Origin: Cypionkella sp.
GTDB taxonomy: Bacteria; Pseudomonadota; Alphaproteobacteria; Rhodobacterales; Rhodobacteraceae
Length of the DNA stretch: 63,271 nucleotides
Assembly: GCF_030652235.1 (NCBI RefSeq)
Contig: NZ_JAUSBA010000043.1
Location: forward strand, 1 to 63,271
Direction: 5' to 3'
In this document: piece after piece, positions 8,840 through 63,061 of the stretch
Numbering within the stretch: position 1 is the first letter of the stretch
Layout: every line of letters starts with the position of its first letter
Program-made: the position numbers and the translations under genes
The notes under the pieces: model-generated
The model's database searches: none
What the model saw: only the letters and a program-made list of their open reading frames with translations
What the model was told of the DNA's origin: nothing

Positions 8840-10015
8840 ATGCAACGAAAAGACCGGATCGACCGTTTGGTCGGGGAACATGCGGCCAAGCTATCGGAGC
8901 GCCTGATGGCGCATCGCACGCAGCTTTTCCCGCCCAATGCGCAAAAGCAACTGCGGTCGTTCAGCAGTGGCGAGGTCGCGGGGCTGCTGGGCGTCAAGGA
9001 TGCTTACCTTCGCAAGCTGTCGCTGGAGGGGCGCGGGCCGCAGCCGCAAACCGGGGCTGGCGGGCGGCGGTTGTATTCTTCGCAAGATATCATGGCGTTG
9101 CGGCAGATGCTGGAACTGGGCGCGAAGGCACCGGGCACCTACCTGCCGGGGCGGCGGGCGGGGGACCATTTGCAGGTGATCACCGTGATCAACTTCAAGG
9201 GCGGCTCTGGCAAGACCACCACGGCGGCGCATCTGGCGCAAAAGGCGGCGCTGGATGGCTATAAGGTGCTGGCGATTGATCTGGACCCGCAGGCCAGTCT
9301 GTCGGCGCTGCACGGCTATCAACCCGAGTTTGATCTGGCGGATGGCGGCACGCTGTATGATGCGATCCGCTATGATGATCCGGTGCGCCTGCGCGATATT
9401 ATCCGCCCGACCTATTTCACCAACCTGCATCTGATTCCCGGCAATCTGGAGCTGATGGAATTTGAACATGACACGCCGCGTGTGCTGGCCGAGCGTGGCG
9501 GTAATCTTTTCTTTACCAGAATTTCCGATGCCTTGGCGCAGGTGGAAGGCGATTACGATCTGGTCGTGATCGACTGTCCGCCGCAACTGGGGTTTCTGAC
9601 CATGTCGGCTTTGTCTGCGGCCACTTCCGTTCTGGTGACGGTGCATCCGCAGATGCTGGATGTGATGAGCATGTGTCAGTTTTTGCTGATGACCTCGAAC
9701 CTATTGGGCGTGGTGGCGGATGCGGGCGGCAATATGAGTTACGATTGGCTGCGCTATCTGGTGACGCGCTACGAGCCGGGGGATGGGCCGCAAAACCAGA
9801 TGGTCAGCTTTATGCGCAGCCTGTTTGGCGATCATGTGCTGAACCATACCGTTTTGAAATCAACAGCAATTTCCGATGCAGGCCTAACCAAGCAGACCCT
9901 GTATGAGGTGGAAAAAGCCGATTTCACCCGCGCCACTTACGAGCGCGCGATGGAAAGCCTGAACGCGGTGAATGGCGAGATTGAAGACCTGATTCAAGCG
10001 GCATGGGGGCGGTAA
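8840..10015 (+). CDS. repA: RepA, ParA-type partition ATPase of the repABC replicon
   Basis: A 391-residue plasmid partition ATPase. It has an N-terminal MerR-like helix-turn-helix region (SSGEVAGLLGVKDAYLRKL, about residues 42-60), then a deviant Walker A motif KGGSGKTTT at 120-128, LAIDLDPQASL, and the ParA motif VVIDCPPQLGF. RepA segregates the plasmid with RepB and represses the operon. I start at ATG 8840 (MQRKDRID); an in-frame GTG at 8810 overlaps the operator repeats and looks less likely. repB follows immediately after its stop. Confidence 0.9.
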   Translation: MQRKDRIDRLVGEHAAKLSERLMAHRTQLFPPNAQKQLRSFSSGEVAGLLGVKDAYLRKLSLEGRGPQPQTGAGGRRLYSSQDIMALRQMLELGAKAPGTYLPGRRAGDHLQVITVINFKGGSGKTTTAAHLAQKAALDGYKVLAIDLDPQASLSALHGYQPEFDLADGGTLYDAIRYDDPVRLRDIIRPTYFTNLHLIPGNLELMEFEHDTPRVLAERGGNLFFTRISDALAQVEGDYDLVVIDCPPQLGFLTMSALSAATSVLVTVHPQMLDVMSMCQFLLMTSNLLGVVADAGGNMSYDWLRYLVTRYEPGDGPQNQMVSFMRSLFGDHVLNHTVLKSTAISDAGLTKQTLYEVEKADFTRATYERAMESLNAVNGEIEDLIQAAWGR

Positions 10016-10942
10016 ATGGCACGCAAAGATGTGTTGATCGGATTGCTGGCGACCCCTGCCCCCTCGACGGCAGCCGGGCCACCTCGGGCGCAAAAGGGGG
10101 CGATTGGGGCGGTTTCACGCTCGATTGCCGATCTGAAGGCGCGGGCGGTGATCGAGTTGGACCCCGATCTGATTGAGGCGGGCGGCTTGCAGGATCGGCT
10201 GGAAAGCGATCCGGTGGACGACAGCGCTTTGGCGCGCTCTATCGGTGAATATGGCCAGCAGGTGCCGGTTCTGGTGCGCCCGCACCCTGATCAAGATGGG
10301 CGCTATCAAATCGTTTACGGCCGCCGCCGGGTGCTGGCGATGCGCGCGCTTGGCCAGCCGGTCAAAGCGCTGGTGCGTGATCTGGATGACCGGGCGCTGG
10401 TGCTGGCGCAGGGGCAGGAAAACACCGCGCGGCGCGATCTGTCGTTCATCGAAAAGGTCAACTTTGCGCGGCAGTTGCAGGATGCGGGCTATGATCGCAA
10501 GGTGATCTGCGATGCGCTTTCGGTGGATAAAACCCTTGCCTCGCGGATGCTGTCGGTGGCGGGGCGGTTGCCGTCTGCGCTGATCGAGGCGATTGGCGCG
10601 GCGCCGTCTGTTGGGCGGGATCGTTGGCTTGCGTTGGCGGATCTGATCGAGGCGGGCGGCGACGGTGTGGCCGCGGCTGTGGGCGAGAGTTCGGACGCGC
10701 GGTTTCAGGCGGTGTGGCATCATCTGACCGCCAAGCCTGCGCGCGCTGCGCCCCCCCTGCCCCGCGAGGCCCCGCGCGTGGTGCTGGCCGAGGGCGGTGC
10801 GCCGCTGGCCGAGGCATCTTTGGGGGCCACAACAATGACACTAAAGCTGCGTCTGGCGCAAACCGCTGGGTTTGAGGACTGGCTTTTGGACAATCTTCCC
10901 GCCCTGCTGCGCGACTGGCAGAACGGCAAGCCTGATGCGTAA
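10016..10942 (+). CDS. repB: RepB, ParB-type centromere-binding protein
   Basis: A 308-residue ParB family protein of repABC plasmids. It carries the ParB box (VYGRRRVLAMRALGQPVKALV), the ENTARRDLSFIEK segment and a helix-turn-helix (KVICDALSVDKTLASRMLSV). It binds parS and works with RepA in segregation. The ATG is next to the repA stop, so the two are one operon. Two GTT-N4-GC-N4-AAC palindromes matching the RepB parS consensus lie after repC and are the likely binding sites. Confidence 0.9.
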   Translation: MARKDVLIGLLATPAPSTAAGPPRAQKGAIGAVSRSIADLKARAVIELDPDLIEAGGLQDRLESDPVDDSALARSIGEYGQQVPVLVRPHPDQDGRYQIVYGRRRVLAMRALGQPVKALVRDLDDRALVLAQGQENTARRDLSFIEKVNFARQLQDAGYDRKVICDALSVDKTLASRMLSVAGRLPSALIEAIGAAPSVGRDRWLALADLIEAGGDGVAAAVGESSDARFQAVWHHLTAKPARAAPPLPREAPRVVLAEGGAPLAEASLGATTMTLKLRLAQTAGFEDWLLDNLPALLRDWQNGKPDA

Positions 10943-10977
10943 CCCTGAACCAGAAAGGAGGCACGCTTCGGCATAAC

Positions 10978-11028
10978 AAAAAGCCCCCCGGAAATGACAT
11001 TCCGAGAGGCCCATTCTTGTCTTTGCAC
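10978..11028 (-). ncRNA. Countertranscribed RNA (incompatibility RNA) in the repB-repC gap
   Basis: On the minus strand a consensus -35 TTGACA (11063-11058) and a -10-like CTATTT (11040-11035), 17 bp apart, drive toward a clear intrinsic terminator: arms CCTCTCGGAA and TTCCGGGGGG with a 6-nt loop (11009-10984), then five T (10982-10978). This gives an RNA of about 50 nt antisense to the repC leader, the place and size of the ctRNA that sets repABC copy number and incompatibility. Confidence 0.75.
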
Positions 11029-11063
11029 TTCAAGAAATAGGCCCTCTTATGCTCGGCTGTCAA

Positions 11064-11079
11064 CCGCTGATTTCAGCGG
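11064..11079 (+). promoter_or_regulatory. Hairpin in the repC leader
   Basis: CCGCTGA-TT-TCAGCGG is a perfect 7-bp-arm hairpin 30 nt before the repC start and just upstream of the ctRNA promoter. In repABC plasmids a leader hairpin that blocks repC expression forms when the ctRNA is bound; this is the likely candidate. Confidence 0.5.
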
Positions 11080-11108
11080 CCGGAGCAGTTTTGCCGCGTG
11101 ATACCCCA

Positions 11109-12332
11109 ATGAAGCATATTTCCGTGACGCCGTTTGGGCGGCAAGCGATGACGGCTGGGCTGTTGGCGGCGCGTGCCTTAAGGGATGAAGCCCCCCTGCC
11201 CCGGATTGATAAATGGTCGCTTTTCAACGACTTGCGCACTGCGCGCGGGCGGTTTGGCGTTAGTGACCGCGATCTGTCGGTGCTGTATGCGCTGCTGACC
11301 TTCCTGCCTGCCAAGGCGCTGGAGGATGGCGCCGATCTGGTGGTGTTTCCATCAAATGCCTCGCTGTCAGACCGGGCGCATGGCATGGCGGAAAGCACGC
11401 TGCGGCGGCATTTGGCGGTGCTGGTGGGCGCGGGGCTGGTGTGGCGGCAAGACAGCCCGAACGGCAAGCGCTATGCGGCGCGGGATCGGTCGGGCGCGCT
11501 GGTGCAGGCGTTTGGGCTTGATCTGCGGCCCTTGTTGCTGCGCGCGGGCGATATTGTGGCGGCAGCGGCGGAGGTGGCCGAGGCCGCTGACCGCCTGCAC
11601 CGCGCGCGCGCGGCTTTGGTGCTGCGGATGCGCGATGCGGCCAAGCTGCTGGCTTATGGCATCGAAGCCTGTCTGCCGGGCGATTGGGCGGGCCTGGAGG
11701 CGCGGTTGCTGCCGCTGCGGGCGGCATTGCGGCGCAAGATGGACGCGGGTGTCGTGGCGGGACTTCTGGGCGAAGCTGGGAGTATTTTACAGGCTTTGCG
11801 GCTGATGATTGAAAGCAATACAGAAGAAAAGTATGGCACTGCCGCTCATAATGAGCGTCACCATACGAATTCAAAACAAGACTCTTATGTATTTGAACCT
11901 TGCCTAGAAACAGGCAGGGGCGCGGGGCAGGAGAATCTTGTCCCTGAACTGGCGCAGCAGGATGACCCGGATGATGGGGCGCAAGATGCAGCGCAGATGC
12001 CAAGTATTCCGCTGGTATTGGTGTTGAAAGCCTGCCCGGATATTTTACCCTATGCGCGATCGAACTTGACGCAATGGCGCGATTTGGTCGTGGTGGCGTC
12101 GGAAGTGCGCGGCATGATGGGGATCAGTGCTTCGGCTTGGCAAGAGGCGCAACGTTTCATGGGGCCAGAGACGGCGGCGATCGCCGTGGTGGCGATGATG
12201 CAGCGGATTGGCAGTATTTCCAATCCGGGTGGGTATCTACGGGCGCTGTCGGGCAAGGCTGCGGCTGGCGGATTTTCGGCGGGGCCGATGATTATGGCTT
12301 TGTTGAACACTGAAACCGCGCGGGCGGCGTGA
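11109..12332 (+). CDS. repC: RepC replication initiator
   Basis: A 407-residue initiator of repABC plasmids. The N-terminal part has the usual MKHISVTPFGRQ opening and a winged-helix region (NASLSDRAHGMAESTLRRHLAVLVGAGLV shows the recognition helix), followed by a charged linker and a C-terminal helical domain. The start at 11109 matches family openings; the reading frame is open further up to 11049 but that part crosses the leader hairpin. The origin of replication is normally inside repC, where a lower-GC stretch at about 11790-11900 (many A/T codons) is a plausible place. Copy control is by the antisense RNA upstream. Confidence 0.9.
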   Translation: MKHISVTPFGRQAMTAGLLAARALRDEAPLPRIDKWSLFNDLRTARGRFGVSDRDLSVLYALLTFLPAKALEDGADLVVFPSNASLSDRAHGMAESTLRRHLAVLVGAGLVWRQDSPNGKRYAARDRSGALVQAFGLDLRPLLLRAGDIVAAAAEVAEAADRLHRARAALVLRMRDAAKLLAYGIEACLPGDWAGLEARLLPLRAALRRKMDAGVVAGLLGEAGSILQALRLMIESNTEEKYGTAAHNERHHTNSKQDSYVFEPCLETGRGAGQENLVPELAQQDDPDDGAQDAAQMPSIPLVLVLKACPDILPYARSNLTQWRDLVVVASEVRGMMGISASAWQEAQRFMGPETAAIAVVAMMQRIGSISNPGGYLRALSGKAAAGGFSAGPMIMALLNTETARAA

Positions 12333-12333
12333 G

Positions 12334-12349
12334 GTTGACAGCTGTCAAC
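12334..12349. other. parS partition site 1
   Basis: GTTGACAGCTGTCAAC is a perfect 16-bp palindrome that fits the RepB parS consensus GTT-N4-GC-N4-AAC. It begins 2 bp after the repC stop. Confidence 0.85.
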
Positions 12350-12359: not shown

Positions 12360-12375
12360 GTTGTCAGCTGTCAAC
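12360..12375. other. parS partition site 2
   Basis: GTTGTCAGCTGTCAAC matches GTT-N4-GC-N4-AAC and differs from site 1 by one base. The two sites are 26 bp apart centre to centre, between repC and its terminator. Confidence 0.8.
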
Positions 12376-12410: not shown

Positions 12411-13577
12411 TTAGGATTGCTGCCGTAGCAGGGCCAGTGCGACATCCAAAGGCATCGCGCGCAAGCCATCGCCAAGGGGGGCCTCGCGCGCGCCTGCATA
12501 GACCAGAATACGGCGATCTGCCTGAATGTCGGCGGTCGCCAAGTGGAAGCCCCGCGATACTTTAGGGGCTGTGCTGCGCTTGATCTCTATCGCCCAGACC
12601 GCGCCTTGGGGCAGGCGCAGCACAAGGTCCAACTCGGCCCCGGCTGAGGTTCGATAAAAGAACGGCGCGGTCCCCCTGGGTGCGGCAGTGATCAAGGCTT
12701 CCAGACAAAACCCTTCCCAACTGCCAGCGACAACCGGGTGGCCCAGCAGGTTTTCCAGTGTTTCAAGCCCCAGTAAGGTGTGCAGAAGCCCGGTGTCGCG
12801 GACATAGACTTTGGCCGATTTGACCAGCCGCTTGCCGGTGTTTTCATGCCACGGTGTAAGACGGCGCACCAGCATCAGATCGACCAGCAGATCCAGATAG
12901 CGCCCGACGGTCTGGCCTGAAACCCCCAAGCCGTCGCCCAAGGCGGCAGCGTTCAGCAATCCGCCTTGGGCATGGGCAAGCATGGTCCAGAACCGGCGCA
13001 GCGTCGTGGCCGGAATACGGGGGCCAAGGGCAGGGATGTCACGCTGCAGATACCTGCGCAGAAAGTCTTCGCGCCAGTTGAGGCTTGCGCGGTCACTGAC
13101 GGCCCTGAAGCTGTCGGGAAAGCCGCCACGCAGCCAAAGCCTGGTCATTTGATCATCGCCGACTTCATCCAGTTGCAGCGGCGGCATCTCGACATACCGC
13201 ACATGGCCTGCCAGAGATTCGGCCGATTGGTGCAATAACAGGTTTGAGGCCGCGCCCAAAAGCAGAAATTGACCGCTGCGCAACCCTTTGCGGCGTCGCA
13301 TGTCGATCTGACCGCGCAGGCTGTTGAACAGGCCGGGCATCTGCTGCACCTGATCCAGAACAACCAGTTTTCCGGCCTGCTCGTCCAGATAAAGATCTGG
13401 CTCGGTCAGAACCTGCCGATCCGCCGCGCGTTCAAGGTCAAGATAGACCGAGGGCATTTGCGCGGCGATCTCTAGCGCAAGGGTGGTTTTTCCGATCTGA
13501 TGCGGGCCCAAAAGCACGACCGCCGCGTGTTCAGCAAGCGCCGAGATGACAAGGTGATTGCTGCTGCGTGGGTACAT
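12411..13577 (-). CDS. AAA_14/DUF4143 family ATPase
   Basis: A 388-residue ATP-binding protein. An N-terminal AAA domain carries Walker A GPHQIGKTT at residues 24-32 and a Walker B-like strand (LVVLDQVQQMP; the usual Glu is Gln here). A C-terminal DUF4143 region carries the nuclease-like pattern AELDLVL ... WAIEIKRS. The family is common beside mobile elements; its role is unknown. The Walker A motif has H and Q at positions often R/Q and V/T, so ATP binding is probable but not certain. I start at ATG 13577 (MYPRSSNH), not the longer frame from 13664. Confidence 0.75.
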   Translation of the reverse strand: MYPRSSNHLVISALAEHAAVVLLGPHQIGKTTLALEIAAQMPSVYLDLERAADRQVLTEPDLYLDEQAGKLVVLDQVQQMPGLFNSLRGQIDMRRRKGLRSGQFLLLGAASNLLLHQSAESLAGHVRYVEMPPLQLDEVGDDQMTRLWLRGGFPDSFRAVSDRASLNWREDFLRRYLQRDIPALGPRIPATTLRRFWTMLAHAQGGLLNAAALGDGLGVSGQTVGRYLDLLVDLMLVRRLTPWHENTGKRLVKSAKVYVRDTGLLHTLLGLETLENLLGHPVVAGSWEGFCLEALITAAPRGTAPFFYRTSAGAELDLVLRLPQGAVWAIEIKRSTAPKVSRGFHLATADIQADRRILVYAGAREAPLGDGLRAMPLDVALALLRQQS

Positions 13578-13900
13578 AGCGTGTAAATATGCCGTGAGTT
13601 GGAAGTTTTGCAAGGTTAAACGCGGATTATGCAGTTTAGGGTGGGTGGGGCCGCGCTTGCGCATGGCGCTGCCGTGATCGCCGTGCCGGGATACCCCGAT
13701 GCGACAGCACAGCGGATTTCACCGATGCCGCCCCGCGTGCAGACCCATCCGTACCGGGTTCTGTGGGCGAGCTTTGGCCATCAGCGTGCAATGCCTGTCC
13801 CAGCTGTGCGCGGTGCGCTTACCGGGAAATGTTGCCATTTCAAGGCTTATCTCTAAGCTGTGTTGCAGCAATTTCGCGCGGTTATTTTTATATAAACCAG
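13578..13900. other. Intergenic stretch without a supported gene
   Basis: This stretch lies between the ATPase gene and the promoter of the B12-domain gene. Short open frames on both strands show no domain pattern that I recognise. It marks the junction between the plasmid backbone and the photosynthesis cluster. Confidence 0.4.
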
Positions 13901-13930: not shown

Positions 13931-14007
13931 CAGGTACGCAAAGGCATACGGAGACCGGTTGTTCTCTCGGCGGGCCATTGACGTTGATGGCTTTGGAGGA
14001 GGTCAAC

Positions 14008-14829
14008 ATGTCACGCTCTGCTACGTTTGACAGGCAAATGCTTGAGACAGCATTTTCAGAAATTGACGCTGTGCACCGGTCATTGCCGGAAGCCACATTA
14101 AGCACCCTTGCCGCCGAAGTTGTGACGCGGGTCGCGAACAATCTGCGGTTTGCAGTGCAGCCTGATATGGTGCCGTGCCTTGATGAAATAGATATGCTGT
14201 GCAACGCTTTGCTGTCGGATGATCCGCACGCGGCGACAGCCTTTATCGAGAATGTGCAGACCAAAGGGTCCAGCTATGAAACCCTGTGTCTGCTGTATCT
14301 GACCGTTGCCGCGCGACGCTTGGGCGAATGGTGGGACAATGATGACGTCAGCTTTTACCGCGTGACGGTGGCGGCGGGTCGGATCTATGCCATTCTGCGA
14401 ATCCTGCGGATGGAGCGCCCGATCGGTGTGCCCGACATGCAGCGCGCTGCCGCCTTTGCTTCGGTTCCGGGCGAGAATCACACTTTGGGAATCACCATTG
14501 CCAGCGACCTTGCCCGCGAACGCGGCTGGGATATCGACCTGTTTGTCGGCCTTACGCATGACGCTTTGGTTGAAACGCTGGAACAACGTCAGCCCGCCCT
14601 GATCGGCCTGTCTGCCAGCGGCAGGCGATCTATGCCCGCGCTGACCCGGTTGATCGTGGCGCTGCGCATCAGCAATCCCAATGCGCGCATTTTGGTGTGC
14701 GGTCAGATCGCCGCGGCCAACCTTGCTTTGGTTGGTCTGACGGGTGCAGATGCCGCCGCGCATGATTTTCAAGGGGCGATCGGCCATATGGAACGCTTGC
14801 TGGATCTGCCCACGGGTCGGCTGATCTAA
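14008..14829 (+). CDS. B12-binding-domain regulator, AerR/PpaA-like paralogue
   Basis: A 273-residue protein whose C-terminal half looks like a cobalamin-binding fold: PGENHTLG contains the E-x-H-x-x-G signature with His158, followed by beta-alpha units (WDIDLFVGL, PALIGLSASG, ARILVCGQ). An N-terminal helical part (ARRLGEWW, VAAGRIYAIL) matches the region before the B12 domain in AerR/PpaA and related light or oxygen sensors. GGAGGAGG lies 8-9 nt before the ATG at 14008, deciding the start over 13978. It is a paralogue of the gene at 56720, suggesting control of photosynthesis or tetrapyrrole genes by B12 or light. It lacks any DNA-binding domain I can see. Confidence 0.7.
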   Translation: MSRSATFDRQMLETAFSEIDAVHRSLPEATLSTLAAEVVTRVANNLRFAVQPDMVPCLDEIDMLCNALLSDDPHAATAFIENVQTKGSSYETLCLLYLTVAARRLGEWWDNDDVSFYRVTVAAGRIYAILRILRMERPIGVPDMQRAAAFASVPGENHTLGITIASDLARERGWDIDLFVGLTHDALVETLEQRQPALIGLSASGRRSMPALTRLIVALRISNPNARILVCGQIAAANLALVGLTGADAAAHDFQGAIGHMERLLDLPTGRLI

Positions 14830-14848: not shown

Positions 14849-15820
14849 TCAGAAAACCGCATGGGCCCCGCGATCATCAAGGGCCGCGCCGCGCACCAAA
14901 CGCGCATAGTGGTCAAACAGCGTCTCTGACCCCGTGGCGGGGGTTGCATCCGCCGCATAGTGCCCGGTTGCCGCATCAAAAACCAACATGGATTCAGTGG
15001 CATAATACCGCCCGATCCGCGCAAGTTCCGCTTTGTCTTTCAGCCGTGGCGCAATCCGACCCAAACCGTCCAGCACAGCAATAACGCCGTCCAGCATCCG
15101 CACCGGCACCCGCCGAAACTTTGGCGCAAGACCCAAAAGCCGGAACAACGCTTCACCCTGCTGACGCGGTGTGATCGCAGGGCCGGGGCCGCCGATGGGC
15201 AGGATGCGGTTTTGCAAGTGAGGGTCGTCAAGGCAATCCGCCAGATAACGCCCAAGATCGCCGTCGCTGATCGGCTTGCATGCCGTCAGTGCCCCATCGC
15301 CAAACAGCAAAAACGGCTTGCCCGCCTTCACACGGTTCAACTGCCCGGACAGCGACTTGAAGTAAGCCGTCGGGCGCACGATGGAATAGATCAACCCCGA
15401 GTCGATCAGCGCCCTCTCAAAGGCGAGTTTTGCGTGCTGAAACGCCAATTTGGGCCGTTGCACGCAAATTGCCGACACCAGCACGAACTGTCGGACCCCT
15501 GCGGTTTGCGCCGCCGCCAAAGCCTGCAGATGCGCCTGGTGATCAATCGCCCAGGCATCCAACGGCGCACCCGTGCGCGAGGCAAGGCACGAGACGATGG
15601 CATCGAACCGCTCGCTGCGAAAACCGTCCCGCGCCAGCGATGCAGGGTCTGTCACCTTGCCAAAGCGAAAGCTGGCAGCGTAGGGCAGGGGGCCAGAACC
15701 CGGCCTGACAAAACACACCACCTCATGCCCGCGCGCCAGCAGCGCCGCAACCGTGGCGCGCCCGATGGTGCCGGTTGCCCCCAGCACAAACACCCGCAGG
15801 GCAGGGGCCTGCGCGCTCAT
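14849..15820 (-). CDS. bciA: Divinyl (proto)chlorophyllide 8-vinyl reductase BciA
   Basis: A 323-residue NAD(P)H-dependent reductase of the extended SDR/NmrA fold. The dinucleotide motif GATGTIGRA is at residues 14-22, and the sequence continues [19 protein letters not shown] as in BciA proteins. It reduces the C8 vinyl group of divinyl chlorophyll precursors to ethyl in bacteriochlorophyll a synthesis. The ATG at 15820 overlaps the hemE stop (ATGA), so hemE-bciA is one operon. The longer open frame up to 16033 is a shadow of hemE. It ends 19 bp from the convergent B12-domain gene with no clear terminator. Confidence 0.85.
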
Positions 15821-16845
15821 CCCGCCCGCACCGTGTCCACCATCCGCGCGACGTTGTCCGGGCTGGCATCTGGCGTGATGCCGTGGCCCAGGTTGAAGAT
15901 ATGCGGCCCGCCCTTGAACGCATCGACCACGCGGCGGGTCGCCTGCACCAACGCCTGCCCGCCCGTCACCATATGGGTGGGCGACAGGTTGCCCTGCACG
16001 CAGCCGCCCGGTTGCAGATGCTGTGCCGCCCATTCCGGGCTGACCGCGTTGTCAACCGCCACGCAATCTGCCCCAGTCGCTTGCGCAAACCCCCCATACC
16101 CCGCGCCTGCTTCGCGCGGGAAGGCGATCACCGGCAGGCCGGGGTGTTTGGCCTTCAACGCGCTGATGATGCGGGCGGTGGGCTTCACCGCAAAGTCGTG
16201 AAAATCTTGCCCTTTCAGCGACCCGGCCCATGAATCAAACAGCTTCACCACCTCGGCCCCCGCCTGCACTTGCGCCGACAGATAGTCGATGGTGGCTTCG
16301 GTAATCACGTCGATCAGCGCTGAAAACGTCGCGCGGTCGGTGGCTTTCAACGCATGCGCCGCCGCCTGATCCTTGCTGCCACGCCCGGCAATCATATAGG
16401 TCGCCACCGTCCACGGCGCGCCTGCAAAGCCGATCAGCGTCGTCTCACCTGGCAATTCCCGCGCCAGTATCCGCACGGTTTCATAAATTGGTGCCAGCGT
16501 GTCGTGGATCGCCGCCCGCGGCTTCAAGGCCAAAATCCCCGCCATCGTGGTGATGGTGGAAAGCCTTGGCCCCTCGCCGGTTTCAAACCGCAGATCCGCC
16601 CCCAACGCCTGCGGCAGCAGCAGGATGTCGGCGAAAAGAATAGCCGCATCAAAGCCATAGCGCCGGATCGGTTGCAACGTCACCTCTGCCGCGAGTTCCG
16701 GGTTATAGCACAGTGACAGGAAATCCCCCGCCTGCGCCCGCGTCGCGCGATATTCCGGCAAATACCGCCCGGCTTGCCGCATCATCCAGATCGGCGGGGT
16801 GGGCAGGGTTTCGCCCGCAAGGGCGCGCAGGATCAGCTTGGTCAT
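15817..16845 (-). CDS. hemE: Uroporphyrinogen decarboxylase HemE
   Basis: A 342-residue cytosolic enzyme that converts uroporphyrinogen III to coproporphyrinogen III. The N-terminal signature [17 protein letters not shown] (family: P-x-W-x-M-R-Q-A-G-R) contains the catalytic Arg residues, and [14 protein letters not shown] matches the second conserved block. ATG 16845 (MTKLILRAL) fits the family start. It is divergent from hemC across a 78-bp gap that contains a TGT-N12-ACA palindrome, so its expression is probably tied to photosynthesis control. Confidence 0.93.
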
Positions 16846-16888
16846 AGACCCTCCAGATACAGAAAAGCGCAAGATTGTTCGCGGGTGT

Positions 16889-16906
16889 TGTCAGCGCAGA
16901 GTGACA
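16889..16906. promoter_or_regulatory. PpsR-type site between hemE and hemC
   Basis: TGTCAGCGCAGAGTGACA fits TGT-N12-ACA and is symmetric for five bases each side (TGTCA/TGACA). It lies 43 bp before the hemE start and 17 bp before the hemC start. Confidence 0.65.
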
Positions 16907-16923
16907 GCGTTATTCCTTCACAC

Positions 16924-17859
16924 ATGACACATCCGCTTCCCACCCCCGCCCAACCGTTCAAAATCGGCACCCGAGGCTCTCCGCTTGCCCTGTGGCAAGC
17001 GCATGAGGTGCGGCGCTGCCTGATGGCCGCCCATACCCTGCCGATTGAGGCGTTTGAGGTGGTGGTGATCAAAGTCACCGGCGATCAGATTCAGGACCGT
17101 GCGCTGAAAGACATCGGCGGCAAGGGCTTGTTCACGCGTGAAATTGAAGACGCCCTGCTGGCGGGCGGCATAGATATTGCGGTCCATTCGATGAAAGACA
17201 TGCCCACGCTGCAACCGGATGGTCTGTGGCTGGATTGCTATTTGCCGCGTCAGGATGTGCGCGATGGCTTTGTGACGCTGGGCGGTGGCGGGCTGATGGA
17301 TTTGGCCCAAGGTGCTGTGGTGGGTTCCTCCAGCTTGCGGCGTCGCGCGCAACTCGCGCACCGTCGCCCCGATCTGCATTTGGTCGAGTTTCGCGGCAAT
17401 GTGCAGACCCGGATGAAAAAGCTGCATGACGGCGTGGCGGCGGCAACTTTCCTTGCAATGGCCGGGCTGAACCGCCTTGGCATGGCCGACGTCGCCCGCC
17501 CGGTCGAAGTGACCGAGATGCTGCCCGCCGTCGCTCAGGGTGCCATCGGGGTCGAGCGTCGGCAGAACGACCCGCGCGCCGAAGCGATGCTGGCCGCCAT
17601 TCACCACACCCCCACCGGCCAGCAACTTGCTGCCGAGCGCGGCTTTCTGGCGCGGCTGGATGGCTCGTGTGAAACCCCCATCGCGGGGCTTGCGGTGCTG
17701 ACAGGCGATCAGCTTTGGCTGCGTGGCGAGATTTTGCGCCCCGATGGCAGCAAGGTCATCGCCGGTGAAATCCGGGGCGGCCTCGCAGATGCGACCGCCT
17801 TGGGTCAGACTTTGGCCGATGAGGTGCTGGGCCGCGCCGGGCCGGGATTTTTCGACTAG
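16924..17859 (+). CDS. hemC: Porphobilinogen deaminase (hydroxymethylbilane synthase) HemC
   Basis: A 311-residue cytosolic enzyme that polymerises four porphobilinogens to hydroxymethylbilane. Family blocks visible are the N-terminal KIGTRGSPLALWQA, the active-site loop VHSMKDMP, SSLRRRAQL with arginines that hold the chain, and the cofactor cysteine in DGSCETPIAG. The start at 16924 is chosen because KIGTRGSPLA follows 13 residues later as expected; the open frame to 16774 is non-family. Its TAG overlaps the convergent bchO TAG inside a shared CTAG. Confidence 0.93.
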   Translation: MTHPLPTPAQPFKIGTRGSPLALWQAHEVRRCLMAAHTLPIEAFEVVVIKVTGDQIQDRALKDIGGKGLFTREIEDALLAGGIDIAVHSMKDMPTLQPDGLWLDCYLPRQDVRDGFVTLGGGGLMDLAQGAVVGSSSLRRRAQLAHRRPDLHLVEFRGNVQTRMKKLHDGVAAATFLAMAGLNRLGMADVARPVEVTEMLPAVAQGAIGVERRQNDPRAEAMLAAIHHTPTGQQLAAERGFLARLDGSCETPIAGLAVLTGDQLWLRGEILRPDGSKVIAGEIRGGLADATALGQTLADEVLGRAGPGFFD

Positions 17860-18734: not shown

Positions 18735-18735
18735 G

Positions 18736-24805: not shown

Positions 24806-24841
24806 CCTAGTTTCCTAGCTTCATATTCTGGAGCGACCCCG

Positions 24842-28076: not shown

Positions 28077-28123
28077 CTTCCAGATGAAATTTGCCGGACA
28101 TCCGGCCGTTGAGGAGCTTTTCC

Positions 28124-29005: not shown

Positions 29006-29006
29006 C

Positions 29007-44546: not shown

Positions 44547-44565
44547 TTGGTTCCCCTTATTATGA

Positions 44566-45030: not shown

Positions 45031-45039
45031 GGTCGTCTC

Positions 45040-46445: not shown

Positions 46446-46460
46446 GAGGTGTCCTCCGGG

Positions 46461-47899: not shown

Positions 47900-47921
<22 letters not shown>
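46461..47921 (-). CDS. lhaA: LhaA, PucC/BCD-family LH1 assembly protein
   Basis: A 486-residue polytopic membrane protein of the PucC/bacteriochlorophyll delivery group within the MFS fold, needed for LH1 assembly. GLFQVSVGMAAVLLLGTLNRVMIVELGVPASIV is the typical first-helix pattern, and DTHKSWIGWKRVPYLWFG is family-conserved. It overlaps the end of bchM by 22 bp. A paralogue (60032-61345) lies after bchG. Confidence 0.9.
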
Positions 47922-56399
<8,478 letters not shown>

Positions 56400-56719: not shown

Positions 56720-57511
56720 ATGCAGGAGTTTCAGCCTCTCAATCAGGTGCGCGCTTTGGCTGGGGATACTTCCGGGGTCAGCTTCTTTGCCTCTCAGGTG
56801 GTGTCACTGCTGGCAGATCGCAGCGCGAAGTCTGTGGTCGAGCCGCGCGAGACTTTGGTTACGGGGCTGATGACCGCATCGTTATCGGGCACCAAGGCGG
56901 CCTTCGCGGAATTGCTGACAGAAGTGAAGCGGGCGCGGATCAGTCTTGCTGCGCTGGCGGATGTCTACATTCCGATTGCGGCGCGGCGGATGGGTCAGGC
57001 TTGGCACGACGACGAAATGTCCTGGATCGACGTGACGATTGGCGTCGGGCGGATGCAAAGCCTTTTGCGCGAGATTGGCACGGCTTGGGTGGCCGATCAG
57101 GCGGGCGACACCGGGCATGGCACGGTGATGTTGATCGTGCCGGACCGCGAACAGCACACTTTGGGGCCGATGGTGGCAACCGGGCAGATGCGGCGCTATG
57201 GGGTTTCGGTATGCCTCAGAATTGCGCCAAGCTTCAACGAACTGCGCAGTTTGATGGCCGCACGGCACTTCGACGGGGTGATGATCTCGGTCGCGACGAA
57301 AGAAAAACTCGAATCTGTCACAAAGACCGTACAATTTCTGAAGACCATCATGGACAAGCCGACCCCCATCGTCGTCGGGGGCGCGGTGATGTCAAAAGTG
57401 GAGGATCCGGCTTCATGCACAGGAGCTGATTTTTCATCAAATGACATCGGCGCAGCTCTGGAGGTCATGGGCCTTAAGTTCGACGCCTTTTGCGTGCTCA
57501 AGCGCGCTTAA
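56720..57511 (+). CDS. aerR: AerR/PpaA, B12-dependent photosynthesis regulator
   Basis: A 263-residue regulator with a C-terminal vitamin B12-binding domain. IVPDREQHTLGPM carries the D/E-x-H-x-x-G motif, with His146 in the place of the B12-ligating His of AerR, and the later beta-alpha units (DGVMISVATKE, TPIVVGGAVM) complete the fold. In Rhodobacter the protein binds B12 in light and counters PpsR/CrtJ. It is 51 bp before ppsR, the canonical arrangement. A divergent paralogue is at 14008. Confidence 0.85.
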   Translation: MQEFQPLNQVRALAGDTSGVSFFASQVVSLLADRSAKSVVEPRETLVTGLMTASLSGTKAAFAELLTEVKRARISLAALADVYIPIAARRMGQAWHDDEMSWIDVTIGVGRMQSLLREIGTAWVADQAGDTGHGTVMLIVPDREQHTLGPMVATGQMRRYGVSVCLRIAPSFNELRSLMAARHFDGVMISVATKEKLESVTKTVQFLKTIMDKPTPIVVGGAVMSKVEDPASCTGADFSSNDIGAALEVMGLKFDAFCVLKRA

Positions 57512-57562
57512 CACACCGTAGTCCCGATTGAACGGGCGGGCGGCAAAAATGGCGAAACTGCT

Positions 57563-58978
57563 GTGAACACTGATACGAAACACTTTTTGACGGGCATGAC
57601 GATGCCGCTGATTGATCCAGAGATGCTCTCTGAGATCGTGTCAACGGCTGCGGACATTTCTTTGCTGATTTCGGGCGATGCCCGCGTGGCCGCTGTGATG
57701 GTCAATCCGGGGCATCCGGCGTTTGGGCGGCTGGACAGTTGGGTTGGCAAGCCCGTGGAAGATATTGTCACCGATGAAAGTTATGAAAAGCTCGTCAAAC
57801 GGCTTGCGGTGATCGCCAAGCAGGGTGCGCGCGCGCTTGCCGTGGAGTTGAACCACATAGATCAGAGTTTGTGGGAGTTTCCGGTGCGTTATTCGATGCA
57901 CAACATCGGCAAGGATAATACCATCCTGATGATGGGCCGCGACATGCGTCCGGTGGCCGAGATGCAGCAGCAGTTGGTGATGGCGCAGTTTGCGCTGGAG
58001 CGAGACTATGAGACGCAGCGCGAGATGGACACCCGCTACCGTGTGCTTATGGAAGCGACGCGCGATGCGGTTGTGCTGGTTGCGATGAACAGCGGGCGGA
58101 TTTCTGATCTGAACGCGGCGGCGGCACTGATGCTGGGCGGCTCGCGGCAGGATTTGATCGGGGCTGCGATTGCGCAAGAGTTTGAGGGACGCCGTCGCGG
58201 CGAGTTTCTGGAAAGCCTGTCCAACATCGCCTCCGCGGATGCGGTCAGCCCTGTGGAATTGGTCGCGCGGCGCTCGCAGCGCAGGGTGCGGGTGATCCCC
58301 AAACTGTTCCGCGCAGCAGGTGAACGGCTGATGTTGTGCCGGATTGAGGCGCCCGAACTTGCCAATACGCCAAACACGGAAACCAACGAAAACCTTGAGC
58401 GGCTTTTCCACGAAGGTGTGGATGGCATGGTGTTTTTGGATCAGGATGGCATCATCACCTCGGCCAATGATGCGTTTCTCAAGCTGACGGATAGCACACA
58501 TCTTGCCAGCGTCCGAGGCCACTCGATGGCGGATTTTCTGGCGCGGGGCGGCGTTGATCTGCGGGTTCTGTTGGACAACACCCGCCGCGCACGGCAGCTG
58601 CGGATGTATGCAACGCGGATTCTCAGCGAGTTCAAGGGTGAAGTTGCTGTCGAGATTTCGGCTGCGTTCCTCAGCGATCGCCCCAAGCCCGGCTTTGGGC
58701 TGATCATCCGTGATGCCAGCAGGTCGGAAATGTTGCGCAAGCCTGGGTTCTCGGCGGGCGATGATGGCATGCGGTCTGTGATGGAGTTGGTGGGATCATC
58801 GACGCTTAAAGACATTGTAACCGAGACCACCGATGTTGTCGAAAAGATGTGCATCCAGACTGCGGTTGATCTGACGCGCAACAACCGGGTGGCGGCTGCC
58901 GAAATGCTGGGGCTGTCGCGGCAATCGCTGTATGTGAAGCTGCGAAAATTCGGTTTGCTGAGCAAGGACGACGAATAG
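57563..58978 (+). CDS. ppsR: PpsR/CrtJ, redox-sensing repressor of photosynthesis genes
   Basis: A 471-residue repressor. PAS domains (about residues 20-130, 165-270 and 290-395) are followed by a Fis-type helix-turn-helix (AAAEMLGLSRQSLYVKLRKFGLL). Q-rich linker helix RPVAEMQQQLVMAQFALERDYETQREMDTRYR is typical. The two redox cysteines match those of Rhodobacter PpsR: one in RLMLCRIE and one in VEKMCIQTA near the HTH. The start is GTG 57563 or ATG 57596/57602. It binds TGT-N12-ACA, present eleven times in this window. Confidence 0.93.
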   Translation: MNTDTKHFLTGMTMPLIDPEMLSEIVSTAADISLLISGDARVAAVMVNPGHPAFGRLDSWVGKPVEDIVTDESYEKLVKRLAVIAKQGARALAVELNHIDQSLWEFPVRYSMHNIGKDNTILMMGRDMRPVAEMQQQLVMAQFALERDYETQREMDTRYRVLMEATRDAVVLVAMNSGRISDLNAAAALMLGGSRQDLIGAAIAQEFEGRRRGEFLESLSNIASADAVSPVELVARRSQRRVRVIPKLFRAAGERLMLCRIEAPELANTPNTETNENLERLFHEGVDGMVFLDQDGIITSANDAFLKLTDSTHLASVRGHSMADFLARGGVDLRVLLDNTRRARQLRMYATRILSEFKGEVAVEISAAFLSDRPKPGFGLIIRDASRSEMLRKPGFSAGDDGMRSVMELVGSSTLKDIVTETTDVVEKMCIQTAVDLTRNNRVAAAEMLGLSRQSLYVKLRKFGLLSKDDE

Positions 58979-59126: not shown

Positions 59127-60035
59127 ATGGATGTATCAACAAGCTTACACATCATCACCCGTCCTCAGCCCAAAGCCGTTTTGGAGCTGATCAAACCAAT
59201 CACCTGGTTTCCGCCGATGTGGGCCTATCTGTGCGGCATCATCTCGGCGGGCGTTGCGCCGTGGTCGTCGTGGCCGCTGGTGATTTTGGGTGTGGTTCTG
59301 GCGGGCCCGGTGGTTTGCGGCATGTCGCAGGCTGCGAATGACTGGTGTGACCGCCATGTAGATGCGGTGAACGAGCCACACCGCCCGATCCCGTCGGGGC
59401 GGATTCCGGGGCGATGGGGGTTGTGGATTGCGCTGGCGATGTCGGTGCTGTCGCTGGCCTTGGGCTGGTTTTTGGGGCCGTGGGGGTTTGCTGCGACCGT
59501 GGTGGGCGTGCTGGCGGCTTGGGCCTATTCTGCCGAACCTGTGCGGCTGAAGCGGTCGGGCTGGTGGGGGCCGGGGCTGGTCGGGCTATGCTATGAAGGG
59601 CTGCCGTGGTTCACCGGGGCCGCTGTGCTGTCGCAGGCCATGCCAAGTTTCCCGGTTGTGACCATGGCGCTGCTGTATGCGTTTGGCGCGCATGGCATTA
59701 TGACTCTGAATGATTTCAAGGCGTTGGAAGGTGACCGGCAACATGGCGTGCGCTCGCTTCCCGTCACTCTGGGGCCTGAAGTGGCGGCGCGGGTTGCCTG
59801 CACGGTGATGGGTGTGGCGCAGGCGTTGGTGATCGCACTTCTGTTCATCTGGGGTAGGCCGTGGCACGCGCTTGCGGTTCTGGCGCTGCTGGCGGCGCAG
59901 GTTTGGGCGATGAAAACCTTGCTGGCCGACCCCAAGGGCAAAGCGCCTTGGTATAACGCCACCGGCATCGCGATGTATGTCAGCGGCATGATGATCACGG
60001 CTTTTGCCATCCGCACGTTAGAGGTTGCACAATGA
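59127..60035 (+). CDS. bchG: Bacteriochlorophyll synthase BchG
   Basis: A 302-residue UbiA-type membrane prenyltransferase that attaches geranylgeranyl to bacteriochlorophyllide a. KPITWFPPMWAYLCG and the first Asp-rich motif NDWCDRHVDAVNEPHRPIPSGRI, plus the second MTLNDFKALEGDRQHGVRSLP, are diagnostic. ATG 59127 is the only good start before the family core and is nestled between two PpsR sites; no normal ribosome-binding site is seen. Its stop overlaps the next gene (ATGA). Confidence 0.93.
   Translation: MDVSTSLHIITRPQPKAVLELIKPITWFPPMWAYLCGIISAGVAPWSSWPLVILGVVLAGPVVCGMSQAANDWCDRHVDAVNEPHRPIPSGRIPGRWGLWIALAMSVLSLALGWFLGPWGFAATVVGVLAAWAYSAEPVRLKRSGWWGPGLVGLCYEGLPWFTGAAVLSQAMPSFPVVTMALLYAFGAHGIMTLNDFKALEGDRQHGVRSLPVTLGPEVAARVACTVMGVAQALVIALLFIWGRPWHALAVLALLAAQVWAMKTLLADPKGKAPWYNATGIAMYVSGMMITAFAIRTLEVAQ
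59132..59149. promoter_or_regulatory. PpsR site 2, inside the bchG start
   Basis: TGTATCAACAAGCTTACA fits TGT-N12-ACA and lies in codons 2-8 of bchG, 6 bp after site 1 (the same gap as in the crtD/crtE pair). Confidence 0.65.
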
Positions 60036-61345
60036 CGCATCTGTCGTGGTTTTCCATCGTGCGGTTGGGGTTGGTGCAACTGTGTCTGGGCGCGATTGTG
60101 GTGCTGACGACATCGACGCTCAATCGGCTGATGGTGGTCGAGGCCGCCTTGCCCGCGGTGCTGCCGGGGCTGTTGGTGGCGCTGCATTACGGCGTGCAGA
60201 TCACCCGGCCGAACTGGGGGTTCCGCTCTGACAGCGGCGGCAATCGCACGCGGTTTATCGTGCTGGGAATGATGGTGCTGGCTTTGGGCGGGTTTCTGGC
60301 GGCACTGGGTTTTGTGGTGATGACGACAGCCTATTGGTCGGGCTTGGCGATGTCCATTGTGGCCTATGCGCTGATCGGCGTGGGGGTAGGGGCTTCTGGA
60401 ACCTCGCTGTTGGCCCTGCTGGCGACGACCACGCATTCGCGGCGCAGGGCGGCGGCGGCGACGATCACTTGGCTGATGATGATCTTTGGCATCGCGGTGA
60501 CGGCGACGGTGGTGGGCAAGCTGCTTGACCCCTATTCGCCCGTGCGGTTGCTGGAACTGGTGGCCGGGGTCGGAGTGATCGCGATGACGCTGACGATTTT
60601 GGCGATTTGGGGGATCGAGCGGCGGCATGGCGGTGCATCCGTCCCGCAGTCCGCGCCGCAGTCGTTTCGCAGCGGCATCGCCGAGATCTGGGCCGAGCCG
60701 CGCGCGCGGCATTTCACGCTGTTCATCTTCCTGTCGATGACCGCCTATTTCATGCAAGAGCTGATCCTAGAGCCCTATGCCGGCCTGGCCTTTGGCTTTA
60801 CCCCCGGCCAATCGACGCAGCTTTCGGGCGCGCAGAATGGTGGAGTGTTTGTTGGTATGCTGACGGTCGGCATTGCCGCGACCGGGCTGCGGATCGGATC
60901 GCTGCGGGCTTGGGTGATGCTGGGCTGCGCGGGGTCGGCGCTGGCGCTGGCGGTGATCGCGCTGGCCGGACAAACCGCCCAAGGCATTGCGCTTGTGCTG
61001 CCAGCCACCGTTGCGCTTGGTCTGTTCAACGGCATGTTCGCGGTCGCGGCCATCGGATCCATGATGGCGCTGGCGGGCGAAGGGCGCGGCGCGCGCGAGG
61101 GCACAAGGATGGGGCTTTGGGGCGCGTCGCAAGCACTGGCTGCCGGATTTGGTGGGCTGATCGGTGCGGGTGCGGTCGATCTGGCCCGGCAGTTCACCGA
61201 TACGGCCAGCGCCTTTGGCTTTGTCTTCATGCTGGAAGCCGGGCTTTTCGTGGCGGCGGCTGTGATGGCCGCGCGTATCATTGACGCGCGTATCATCGAC
61301 GCACAGCGCCAGCCCGGTTTGGGCCATATGGTTGCAGGAGAATAA
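60032..61345 (+). CDS. PucC-like MFS protein (orf428 family)
   Basis: A 437-residue polytopic membrane protein of the PucC/LhaA bacteriochlorophyll delivery family. RLGLVQLCLGAIVVLTTSTLNRLMVVEAALPA is the family first-helix pattern, and SRRRAAAATITWLMMIFGIA is later. Its place between bchG and bchP matches Rhodobacter ORF428, whose function is probably pigment delivery. It overlaps bchG by 4 bp. It ends one base before bchP. Confidence 0.85.
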   Translation: MTHLSWFSIVRLGLVQLCLGAIVVLTTSTLNRLMVVEAALPAVLPGLLVALHYGVQITRPNWGFRSDSGGNRTRFIVLGMMVLALGGFLAALGFVVMTTAYWSGLAMSIVAYALIGVGVGASGTSLLALLATTTHSRRRAAAATITWLMMIFGIAVTATVVGKLLDPYSPVRLLELVAGVGVIAMTLTILAIWGIERRHGGASVPQSAPQSFRSGIAEIWAEPRARHFTLFIFLSMTAYFMQELILEPYAGLAFGFTPGQSTQLSGAQNGGVFVGMLTVGIAATGLRIGSLRAWVMLGCAGSALALAVIALAGQTAQGIALVLPATVALGLFNGMFAVAAIGSMMALAGEGRGAREGTRMGLWGASQALAAGFGGLIGAGAVDLARQFTDTASAFGFVFMLEAGLFVAAAVMAARIIDARIIDAQRQPGLGHMVAGE

Positions 61346-61346
61346 C

Positions 61347-62528
61347 ATGAGCTATGATGTCATTGTGATCGGCGGCGGGCCTTCTGGGGCGACGGCTGCA
61401 AATGACCTTGCACGGGCGGGTTGCGACGTGGCTTTTCTGGACAGGGCAGGCCGGATCAAGCCCTGCGGTGGCGCGATCCCGCCTCGGTTGATCGAGGATT
61501 TTTCAATTCCGGCGGATCAGATTGTTGCACAAATTCAAACGGCGCGGATGATCTCACCCACGCAACGCTCGGTCGATATTCCGATTGAGAACGGCTTTGT
61601 TGGCATGGTGGACCGTGAGCATTTCGACGAATTTCTGCGCAAGCGGGCTGTGCAGAATGGGGCCGTGCGGTTGACCGGCACCTATCTGCGTCTGGAGCGG
61701 GACAGCGACGGCACCCATGTCGTCTACCGCGACAAGGCCAGCGGCGCCGAGATGCGGCAGGCGACCAAACTGGTGATCGGGGCTGATGGCGCGCGCTCTA
61801 ACGTCGCCAAAGCCGAGGTTCCGGGCGGTGACAAAATCCCCTATGTCATTGCATACCATGAGATTATCAAGGCCCCGCAGGCGAGCAATTCCTATGATCC
61901 GAGGCGCTGCGATGTGATCTATGATGGCAAGATCAGCCCGGATTTTTACGGCTGGGTGTTCCCGCATGGCGATCAATGCTCGGTCGGTATGGGCACCGGG
62001 ATTGACGGCATTGACCTGAAACAGGCCACCGCCGATCTGCGCGCGCAGGCGGGCCTTGCGGGATGCGAAACCATCCGCCGTGAAGGAGCACCGATTCCGC
62101 TGCGCCCGATGGATCGCTGGGACAATGGCCGCGATGTGGTGCTGGCGGGCGATGCGGCGGGGGTTGTGGCACCATCCTCGGGCGAGGGGATTTACTACGC
62201 GATGGTTGGCGGGCGGGTGGCGGCCACGGCGGCGCAGGCCACGCTTGCCACAGGCCGGACGTCAAAGCTGCGCATCGCCCGCAAGCTGTTTATGAAGGAA
62301 CACGGCACAGTGTTCAAAGTGCTGCGCTCCATGCAGGATGCTTACTATAAATCCGACGAGCGCCGCGAACGCTTTGTCAGCCTGTGTCACGATGTTGACG
62401 TGCAAAAGCTGACGTTTGAGGCCTATATGAACAAGAAACTGGTATCCGCCCGCCCCTTGGCGCATATCAAGATCGGCTTTAAGAATGTGCGGCACCTGCT
62501 GGGCTTTGTGCCCCCGGAATATGTATGA
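61347..62528 (+). CDS. bchP: Geranylgeranyl reductase BchP
   Basis: A 393-residue FAD enzyme that reduces the geranylgeranyl tail to phytyl. VIVIGGGPSGATAANDLARAG is the dinucleotide fold, IKPCGGAIPPRLIEDF is the family block, and VVLAGDAAGVVAPSSGEGIYYA is the second FAD block. ATG 61347 has GGAGAA 5-6 nt upstream. The next gene idi overlaps its stop. Confidence 0.93.
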   Translation: MSYDVIVIGGGPSGATAANDLARAGCDVAFLDRAGRIKPCGGAIPPRLIEDFSIPADQIVAQIQTARMISPTQRSVDIPIENGFVGMVDREHFDEFLRKRAVQNGAVRLTGTYLRLERDSDGTHVVYRDKASGAEMRQATKLVIGADGARSNVAKAEVPGGDKIPYVIAYHEIIKAPQASNSYDPRRCDVIYDGKISPDFYGWVFPHGDQCSVGMGTGIDGIDLKQATADLRAQAGLAGCETIRREGAPIPLRPMDRWDNGRDVVLAGDAAGVVAPSSGEGIYYAMVGGRVAATAAQATLATGRTSKLRIARKLFMKEHGTVFKVLRSMQDAYYKSDERRERFVSLCHDVDVQKLTFEAYMNKKLVSARPLAHIKIGFKNVRHLLGFVPPEYV

Positions 62529-63061
62529 CCCAGATGATCCCCGCTTGGCTGAACGGCGCGCTGACCCCGGTTGATAAGCTGGAGGTGCATCAGCGCGGCT
62601 TGCGGCATCTGGCGGTGTCTGTGTTCGTTATGGATGGTGACAAGACCCTGCTGCAACGCCGCGCTATGGGAAAATACCACACACCGGGGCTCTGGACCAA
62701 CACATGCTGCACCCATCCGCGCTGGGGCGAAGACCCGATGGATTGCGCCACCCGCCGCCTGCGCGAGGAATTGGGCATCACCGGGCTTGCGCTGCAATCC
62801 GCGGGCCACATCGAATACCGTGCCGATGTTGGCAACGGTCTGACCGAGCATGAGGCGGTTGATATCTTTGTGGCCGAGGCTTCGGACAATCTGGCTCTTG
62901 CGCTGAACCCGGCTGAGGTGATGCAGACCAAATGGGTGCCGCGCGCGCAGCTTGTCAGTCAGGTCAGCGCTGATCCGGCCCTGTATACGCCTTGGCTCAA
63001 AATATATCTGGAAGCTGGAGTTGCAGCGCTCAGCACTGACTATTCCGCGTGTCAAACCTAG
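62525..63061 (+). CDS. idi: Isopentenyl-diphosphate delta-isomerase Idi (type I)
   Basis: A 178-residue Nudix-fold enzyme that interconverts isopentenyl and dimethylallyl diphosphate. The catalytic Cys is in LWTNTCCTHPR, and the Nudix box runs GEDPMDCATRRLREELGI with its Glu residues. It is the last gene of the bchG-bchP unit and supplies precursors for CrtE. Its stop is followed by the IS5-type element. Confidence 0.93.
   Translation: MTQMIPAWLNGALTPVDKLEVHQRGLRHLAVSVFVMDGDKTLLQRRAMGKYHTPGLWTNTCCTHPRWGEDPMDCATRRLREELGITGLALQSAGHIEYRADVGNGLTEHEAVDIFVAEASDNLALALNPAEVMQTKWVPRAQLVSQVSADPALYTPWLKIYLEAGVAALSTDYSACQT

Follow-up and report, generated by a model that had tools for sequence, protein, structure and literature searches.

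A photosynthesis gene cluster beside a RepABC replication module with a parS pair on a contig of Cypionkella

The stretch of DNA analysed here (the window) is the whole of contig C38 (NZ_JAUSBA010000043.1), 63271 bases long, from the 4.80-Mb draft genome of a Cypionkella sp. in 76 contigs (genome G000). It contains a RepABC replication module and, downstream of it, an almost complete photosynthesis gene cluster (PGC). Genes were identified with protein family models, in scans that covered many but not every open reading frame (ORF) of the window, and were compared across 15 genomes of the genus (G000 included), among which the sister species G003 and G006 carry corresponding contigs.

The replication genes form one operon on the plus strand at positions 8810–12332, comprising repA (8810–10015; TIGR03453, 639.6 bits, cut-off 348), repB (10016–10942; TIGR03454, 311 bits, cut-off 201.5) and repC (11049–12332; NF040974, 434 bits, cut-off 150). 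All three score above the curated cut-offs, which identifies the module as RepABC. A palindrome search located two putative parS sites, GTTGACAGCTGTCAAC directly after repC at 12334–12349 and GTTGTCAGCTGTCAAC at 12360–12375. The palindrome GTTNNNNGCNNNNAAC matches three times in the window against 0.98 expected, and three or more matches arose in 9 of 100 shuffles; the third match, at position 35431, falls within pufQ. The count is thus no proof by itself, and the parS assignments are credible because the pair is kept at the equivalent site on both sister plasmids, as in a RepABC plasmid. According to the available text of Bartling et al. (2017; PMC5613091), most of the RepABC-1 and RepABC-2 modules examined in Rhodobacteraceae have two palindromes, 11–42 bp apart, which read TTAACAG/CTGTTAA in modules of group 1 and TTCACAG/CTGTGAA in those of group 2. 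The motif in the window is TTGACAG/CTGTCAA and therefore belongs to neither group.

The same text names a regulatory antisense RNA at the position between repB and repC, and the sequence-only reading of the window had counted such an RNA (ctRNA) among the features present. On the minus strand of this gap, at 10972–11064, we find a single terminator-like hairpin (11012–10981; 0.6 expected), a fold with z = −4.0, and a sequence nearly identical in G003 and G006, all of which fit the proposal. The site has no match in Rfam at the gathering threshold (one weak, unrelated match falls below it), and a sigma-70 scan gave no promoter. We therefore list it as a good candidate for an antisense RNA of the RepABC type, not as a proven one.

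The PGC runs from hemE (15817) to idi (63061) and includes pufQBALMX followed by dxs. Its core genes are present, with bchH frameshifted, so that the window has the content of a photosynthesis plasmid, the evidence for the replicon coming through the sister species. When 42 PGC genes (hemE and hemC included, pufB left out), taken as open frames from the sister plasmid in G006, were mapped on the window, 41 mapped in one piece over more than 85% of their length, bchH being the sole exception. No family match to bchE or bchJ was obtained among the ORFs scanned. The genes crtA, tspO, puhB, lhaA and a PucC-family transporter owe their names to synteny with annotated clusters rather than to a family model.

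From left to right, the cluster begins with hemE (15817–16872, minus strand; TIGR01464) and hemC (16774–17859, plus; PF01379, 1.9e-74), followed by bchO, bchD, bchI and crtA (17856–22084, minus; TIGR03056 for bchO, VWA/AAA for bchD, ChlI for bchI), crtI, crtB and tspO (22221–25318, plus; TIGR02734, NF045921), and crtC and crtD (25614–28006, minus; NF045922, NF045637). A long plus-strand run then contains crtE, crtF, bchC, bchX, bchY and bchZ (28091–35319; TIGR01202, TIGR02016, TIGR02015 and TIGR02014, with weaker matches plus synteny for crtE and crtF); pufQ (35316–35537), pufB (35658–35807), pufA (35821–36009), pufL and pufM (together 35316–37901; TIGR01157, TIGR01115, PF05398, NF040862, NF040861); pufX (37932–38162); and dxs (38283–40241; TIGR00204). 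The pufX product matches PF11511 at 1.4e-17 and is 41% identical to the annotated PufX of Roseinatronobacter S2, with no match in NCBIfam; the gene lies between pufM and dxs with no pufC there, which makes this a PufX-type PGC. On the minus strand follow hemA, puhE, acsF, puhC, puhB, puhA, lhaA, bchM and bchL (41033–49608; TIGR01821, TIGR03055, TIGR02029, TIGR03054, TIGR01150, TIGR02021, TIGR01281), bchH (49499–53070), and bchB, bchN and bchF (53042–56399; TIGR01278, TIGR01279, PF07284). The cluster ends on the plus strand with the regulators ppaA/aerR and ppsR (56720–58978; PF02310, below its cut-off, for ppaA, and TIGR02040) and with bchG, the PucC-family transporter, bchP and idi (59127–63061; TIGR01476, TIGR02023, TIGR02150).

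In the window bchH is divided into two ORFs that differ in frame and adjoin each other at a short run of T near 51.9 kb, while the gene is a single open frame in both sister plasmids. The break is either a mutation, and hence decay, or a sequencing error. Bacteriochlorophyll synthesis may be lacking in G000, unless the frameshift is an artefact of sequencing or the genome has a second bchH.

Two further genes lie between the replication module and hemE: a protein with a B12-binding domain, possibly an AerR/PpaA-like regulator (13978–14829, plus; PF02310; 79% identical in both sisters), and an NAD(P)-binding epimerase-like protein (14849–16033, minus; PF13460; 79–80% in both sisters). The ORF of the latter overlaps hemE, and its called start is probably too far upstream.

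Among the 15 genomes of the genus, PufM was found in 10 and RepC (at 1e-60) in four. The fourth of these RepC matches, in G005, shares only 44% identity, and that genome lacks PufM. In G003 and G006, repABC and the PGC lie on one contig (G003:C19, 64133 bp; G006:C13, 70885 bp), on which the gene order of the window is largely kept, the collinearity being interrupted by insertions beside the PGC. These contigs have exact end overlaps of 54 bases (G003:C19) and 127 bases (G006:C13), and hemE of G003 reads through the join; they are most likely closed circles. As circles, they place the GPH transporter gene next to idi, with only non-PGC genes between them (a ligase, a response regulator, a histidine kinase and others). 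These two are the shared genes nearest to the two ends of the window, which instead has a Tni-type transposition module, a recombinase and a Fic-domain gene on one side and an IS5-type element (an insertion sequence, IS) on the other. The window shows no end-to-end overlap, and no 15-mer is common to its end stretches and the rest of the contig; the Tni-type and IS5-type elements, which form its left and right ends, probably explain the contig breaks.

The sequence-only reading had concluded from the repABC genes, the two parS sites and the adjoining PGC with pufX that the cluster is extrachromosomal. The join itself is borne out by the family models, the palindromes and the sister species. 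The extrachromosomal location is well supported as a property of the genus, because two congeners carry largely collinear repABC and PGC on end-overlapping contigs; for the window the argument runs through these sisters, its own contig being unclosed.

We then compared the history of the PGC with that of its hosts. The PGC tree was built from PufL, PufM, BchX, BchY and BchZ for 32 of 34 taxa (G001 and G014, covered by too few columns, were dropped), with support from the SH-like approximate likelihood ratio test (SH-aLRT). It groups G000, G003 and G006 (99), with G003 and G006 as a pair, places G009 and G013 next (99), and puts G002, G010 and G011 further out. Two lineages from outside the genus, Tobar13mG4 and RE23may17_751 (37% of columns), sit between the genus groups (89, 97). 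The rpoB tree used RpoB sequences extracted by tblastn; rpoB was not found in G002, G012 and G013, nor in 4 of 26 named relatives, and fragments from G010 and relative L176 were left out. It pairs G000 with G004 (98), joins this pair to G003 and G006 (98), and makes the genus a single clade (96), with RE23may17_751 outside it; Tobar13mG4 had no rpoB. In the gyrB tree, G000, G004, G012, G003 and G006 form one clade (100). Within the resolution of the rpoB and gyrB trees, the PGC tree is thus consistent with both for the plasmid-bearing species. Further out, the PGC and rpoB trees differ at several places, many of them poorly supported.

Synonymous divergence (dS) over 18 PGC genes is 0.49 for G000–G003, 0.46 for G000–G006 and 0.34 for G003–G006. 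The corresponding values are 0.43, 0.44 and 0.30 for repABC, 0.41, 0.38 and 0.28 for rpoB, and 0.78, 0.70 and 0.80 for gyrB. The replication genes and the PGC have diverged together; measured against rpoB, they have done so for as long as the species, and measured against gyrB they look younger. The dS values of repABC and the PGC are close to that of rpoB; on the two markers compared, the pattern suggests vertical inheritance with loss, and on these sequence comparisons the plasmid looks more like an inherited, sometimes lost element than one recently swapped between species.

G000 contains two full copies of hemE, the other being on its contig C19. In the hemE tree, the plasmid copies group (with weak support) with hemE on other contigs of G003, G006 and G012, and the second G000 copy groups with that of G004 (99). 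The plasmid pair hemC–hemE is therefore probably a duplicate that arose within the genus. The simple possibility that hemE makes the plasmid essential was rejected, G000, G003 and G006 each having a second hemE on another contig. Elsewhere in the genus, the PGC contigs of G013 (C24), G009 (C113) and the pair G011 (C15)/G002 carry no RepC and have differing neighbours beyond bchO, so that no common empty site can be defined; these differing flanks hint at repeated relocation of the PGC within the genus.

Two close relatives appear to have lost the plasmid as an intact element. In G004, the nearest genome to G000 (RpoB 99.5%, GyrB 98.4%), neither PufM nor RepC was found at the thresholds used. 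The same holds for G012, whose genome is 89% complete, and there a remnant is present. Contig G012:C89 holds part of bchG, ppsR, ppaA, bchF, bchN, bchB and the first 507 residues of bchH, which at base 8309 switches into bchD, followed by bchO, hemC and hemE in the order of the plasmid. Aligned with the window, G003 and G006, the blocks on either side meet at base 8309, and 31.6–32.0 kb are missing. At its end, G012:C28 carries the last part of hemE, the genes for the epimerase-like and B12-binding-domain proteins, and 68 residues of repC (60% identity); C89 and C28 have an 11-base end overlap, across which the same hemE continues. Beside the remnant on C28 are two large ORFs which, judging by the starts of their sequences, we take to be gltD and gltB (glutamate synthase). 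In G012 the plasmid apparently returned to the chromosome and shrank through a single deletion; a mis-join or fusion with another replicon is a possible alternative.

We consider it very probable that the window covers the greater part of a photosynthesis plasmid of RepABC type and low copy number, one that is stably inherited, shows no visible mobility, and has disappeared from or degenerated in close relatives. The observations behind this are the gene content, the paired parS sites, the presence of the same plasmid in two congeners on contigs whose ends overlap, and divergence in step with rpoB. RepA and RepB would partition the plasmid by way of the two palindromes behind repC, and replication, partition and copy number in vivo would be those predicted from the module. 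The cargo would be one block of about 47 kb providing carotenoids, bacteriochlorophyll a, light-harvesting complex 1 (LH1), a PufX-type reaction centre and regulators, plus the hemC–hemE pair. The window contig would close into a ring through its IS and transposon ends, and the PGC block would have left the chromosome inside or near the genus.

Several findings weigh against this interpretation. The window contig is open and ends in a transposable element. A 5-kb ligase/kinase stretch of the G003 plasmid has no match in G000 (the query had no positive control), so the rings differ. In the PGC tree the genus does not form a single clade, two outside lineages nesting inside it. For all three species pairs dS is greater in gyrB than in the PGC, and a gyrB clock would have the plasmid shared after the species split. 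The absence of PufM and RepC from G004 can also be explained by a gain in G000, and the apparent integrated remnant in G012 makes integration in G000 conceivable.

The last point leads to the alternative that fares best, namely that the plasmid of G000 has been inserted into the chromosome or joined to a larger replicon by way of the IS5-type or Tni-type end element, and that only the sisters keep it free. The mobile elements at the contig ends speak for it, as does G012, with its repC fragment and its remnant beside the probable glutamate synthase genes. Unlike G012, however, the window retains repABC, the parS pair and the antisense site undamaged, and the genes at its ends match the order on the end-overlapping sister contigs. 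We regard integration as unlikely.

Horizontal movement of the plasmid into G000, or among the species after their split, would account for its absence from G004, for the gyrB values and for the nested outside lineages. Against this, the dS separating G000 from G003 and G006 is no smaller for the PGC and repABC than for rpoB, the branching of the PGC among the plasmid-bearing species agrees with the species trees, and the situation in G004 requires one step of loss. Furthermore, a Pfam scan of non-PGC proteins, 10 from the sister plasmids and 7 from the window (3 in all without a match), recognised no relaxase or secretion protein, not every ORF having been scanned. We judge such transfer to be slightly less likely still. 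The sequence-only reading had seen whole-pathway transfer as a direct possibility and had suggested comparing PGC and host trees; among the plasmid-bearing species the comparison weakens that idea, which stays conceivable at the edge of the genus, where PGC exchange with Tobar13mG4 and RE23may17_751 may have occurred. That the junction between repABC and the PGC is an assembly chimera can practically be dismissed: the genome is a draft in 76 contigs, but two other species show the same join, and so does a genome from another genus, where the RepABC type is a different one.

A plasmid RepABC photosynthesis replicon can be set against the systems already described. In the available text of Liu et al. 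(2019; PMC6739100), the replicons of 13 PGCs are of DnaA-like I type except that of S. guttiformis (RepB-III), and eight of the 13 are of PufX type, five of these having pufC. The corresponding text of Brinkmann et al. (2018; PMC6052148) describes six PGC plasmids and proposes outsourcing, transfer and reintegration. As far as the accessible parts of the later papers go, the PGC of Algirhabdus cladophorae lies on a plasmid that carries a dnaA-like gene (PMC11943960), and a 2025 review adds Shimia ponticola to the carriers (PMC12654162). Oceanicola HL-35 has a perhaps inactive RepABC module (PMC5613091), its PGC plasmid being DnaA-like I (PMC6739100), again from partial texts.

The module of the window is RepABC, neither DnaA-like I nor RepB-III, with a further replication gene possible outside the scanned ORFs. 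No PGC on a RepABC plasmid was found in the available portions of PMC6739100, PMC6052148, PMC11943960, PMC12654162, PMC4511512, PMC9426580, PMC13386836, PMC5896138, PMC8067484 and PMC5613091, and none of the 11 PLSDB records with a pufLM match contains a RepABC RepC (NF040974, 1e-40). The RepABC replicon is therefore new for photosynthesis plasmids as far as we have searched, and it is this that is unusual about the locus. The sequence-only reading had laid no stress on it and had presented the PufX type of the plasmid-borne PGC as the distinctive point; PufX-type plasmid PGCs have already been published (PMC6739100 and PMC6052148, from the text available) and are present in PLSDB records.

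The DnaA-like I plasmids of roseobacters (Roseobacter litoralis pRLO149_94, Sulfitobacter noctilucicola, Nereida ignava, Tateyamaria, Jannaschia, Oceanicola HL-35) likewise carry the whole PGC as one cargo block; the replication module lies mostly beside or inside it, and several are of PufX type (PMC6739100, PMC6052148, as far as their available text shows). They differ from the window, which has RepABC and a parS pair instead. Sulfitobacter guttiformis pSD118 is a circular plasmid with a pufX-type PGC, like the window, but has a RepB-III module (PMC6739100, available text), lacks RepC and has idi to bchG directly after dxs. Of the PLSDB records, the one closest to the window in pufLM (75.6% nucleotide identity) is the 612.9-kb circular plasmid of Roseinatronobacter sp. 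S2 (NZ_CP121115.1), for which our literature search returned nothing. It too carries a pufX-type PGC, but unlike the window it is a megaplasmid without a RepABC RepC at 1e-40, and it has bchE and bchJ. The top-ranked PLSDB repABC is that of Fuscovulum blasticum pRsa (RepA 88%, RepB 66%, RepC 67%), which shares the palindrome TTGACAG/CTGTCAA; in contrast to the window, pRsa falls outside the 11 records that match pufLM.

The wider occurrence of this arrangement was surveyed in the family, where PufM is present in 165 of 394 sampled genomes. RepC (NF040974, 1e-40) was sought in 149 PufM-positive genomes (69, including 7 from the genus search, plus 80; not all 165) and found in 45 (20 + 25). For six of these 45 (G034, G097, G263, G265, G292 and G343) the PufM contig was unlisted, and a RepC miss in a draft genome says little. 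RepC lies on the PufM contig in three of the 149 genomes, G003, G006 and G345, the window genome being a fourth.

G345 belongs to another genus of the family. Its contig C6 (92841 bp, with a 123-base exact end overlap) carries a PGC and repABC and resembles the window in having a PufX-like ORF (BLASTP 6e-8 and 1e-6 to annotated PufX). It differs in its RepABC type, RepC being 43% identical to that of the window and 50% to that of Tateyamaria pDOK1-4-2; in having one copy of the group 2 palindrome, TTCACAG/CTGTGAA; and in its arrangement, with repABC between hemA and the recombinase/bchO side and the block from idi to hemA in the opposite orientation. As the RepABC types differ, PGCs appear to have been acquired independently by two of them.

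Photosynthesis plasmids have been proposed as a vehicle for the patchy spread of phototrophy in Rhodobacteraceae, the typed published ones belonging, in the texts available, to two replicon types. A third and very common type means that the outsourcing of PGCs does not depend on a single plasmid lineage. We suggest, tentatively, that at least two RepABC compatibility types may each have captured a whole pufX-type PGC, and that the genus may present in living species the cycle proposed for roseobacters: PGC contigs without RepC (G009, G013, G011 and others), a RepABC ring (G000, G003, G006), a reintegrated remnant (G012) and no PufM or RepC found (G004); the broken bchH may mean that loss is just beginning in G000. 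With a ring, an apparent integrated remnant and nothing found among close relatives, gain, loss and reintegration become directly testable.

The remaining genes of the window lie mainly to the left of the replication module. The Tni-type module at the left contig end (298–3748, minus strand) consists of a 272-aa ORF with no Pfam match, TniB (1245–2114, minus; PF05621, 6e-65) and a TniA-like transposase (2111–3748, minus; PF09299/PF00665). A Fic-domain protein (4964–5683, minus; PF02661, 2e-12) is followed by the MFS/GPH-type transporter (6126–7382, minus; PF13347, 7e-42; 91–92% identical in the G003 and G006 plasmids) and by a second, divergent ParB-like protein (7593–8720, minus; weak PF02195/TIGR00180, below curated cut-offs; 62–64% in the same plasmids). 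Between the parS pair and the PGC is an AAA_14/DUF4143 ATPase (12411–13664, minus; PF13635, 1e-44), for which no tblastn match was kept on the G003 and G006 contigs. At the right end, the start of an IS5-type transposase (63131–63271, plus; PF13340, 2e-8; NF033580, 1.7e-8) is cut by the contig end. The tyrosine recombinase beside the Tni-type module (3823–4941, plus; PF00589) is of a type common on alphaproteobacterial plasmids, with matches in 777 plasmid records, and is 77% identical to the recombinase adjoining repC in G345:C6.

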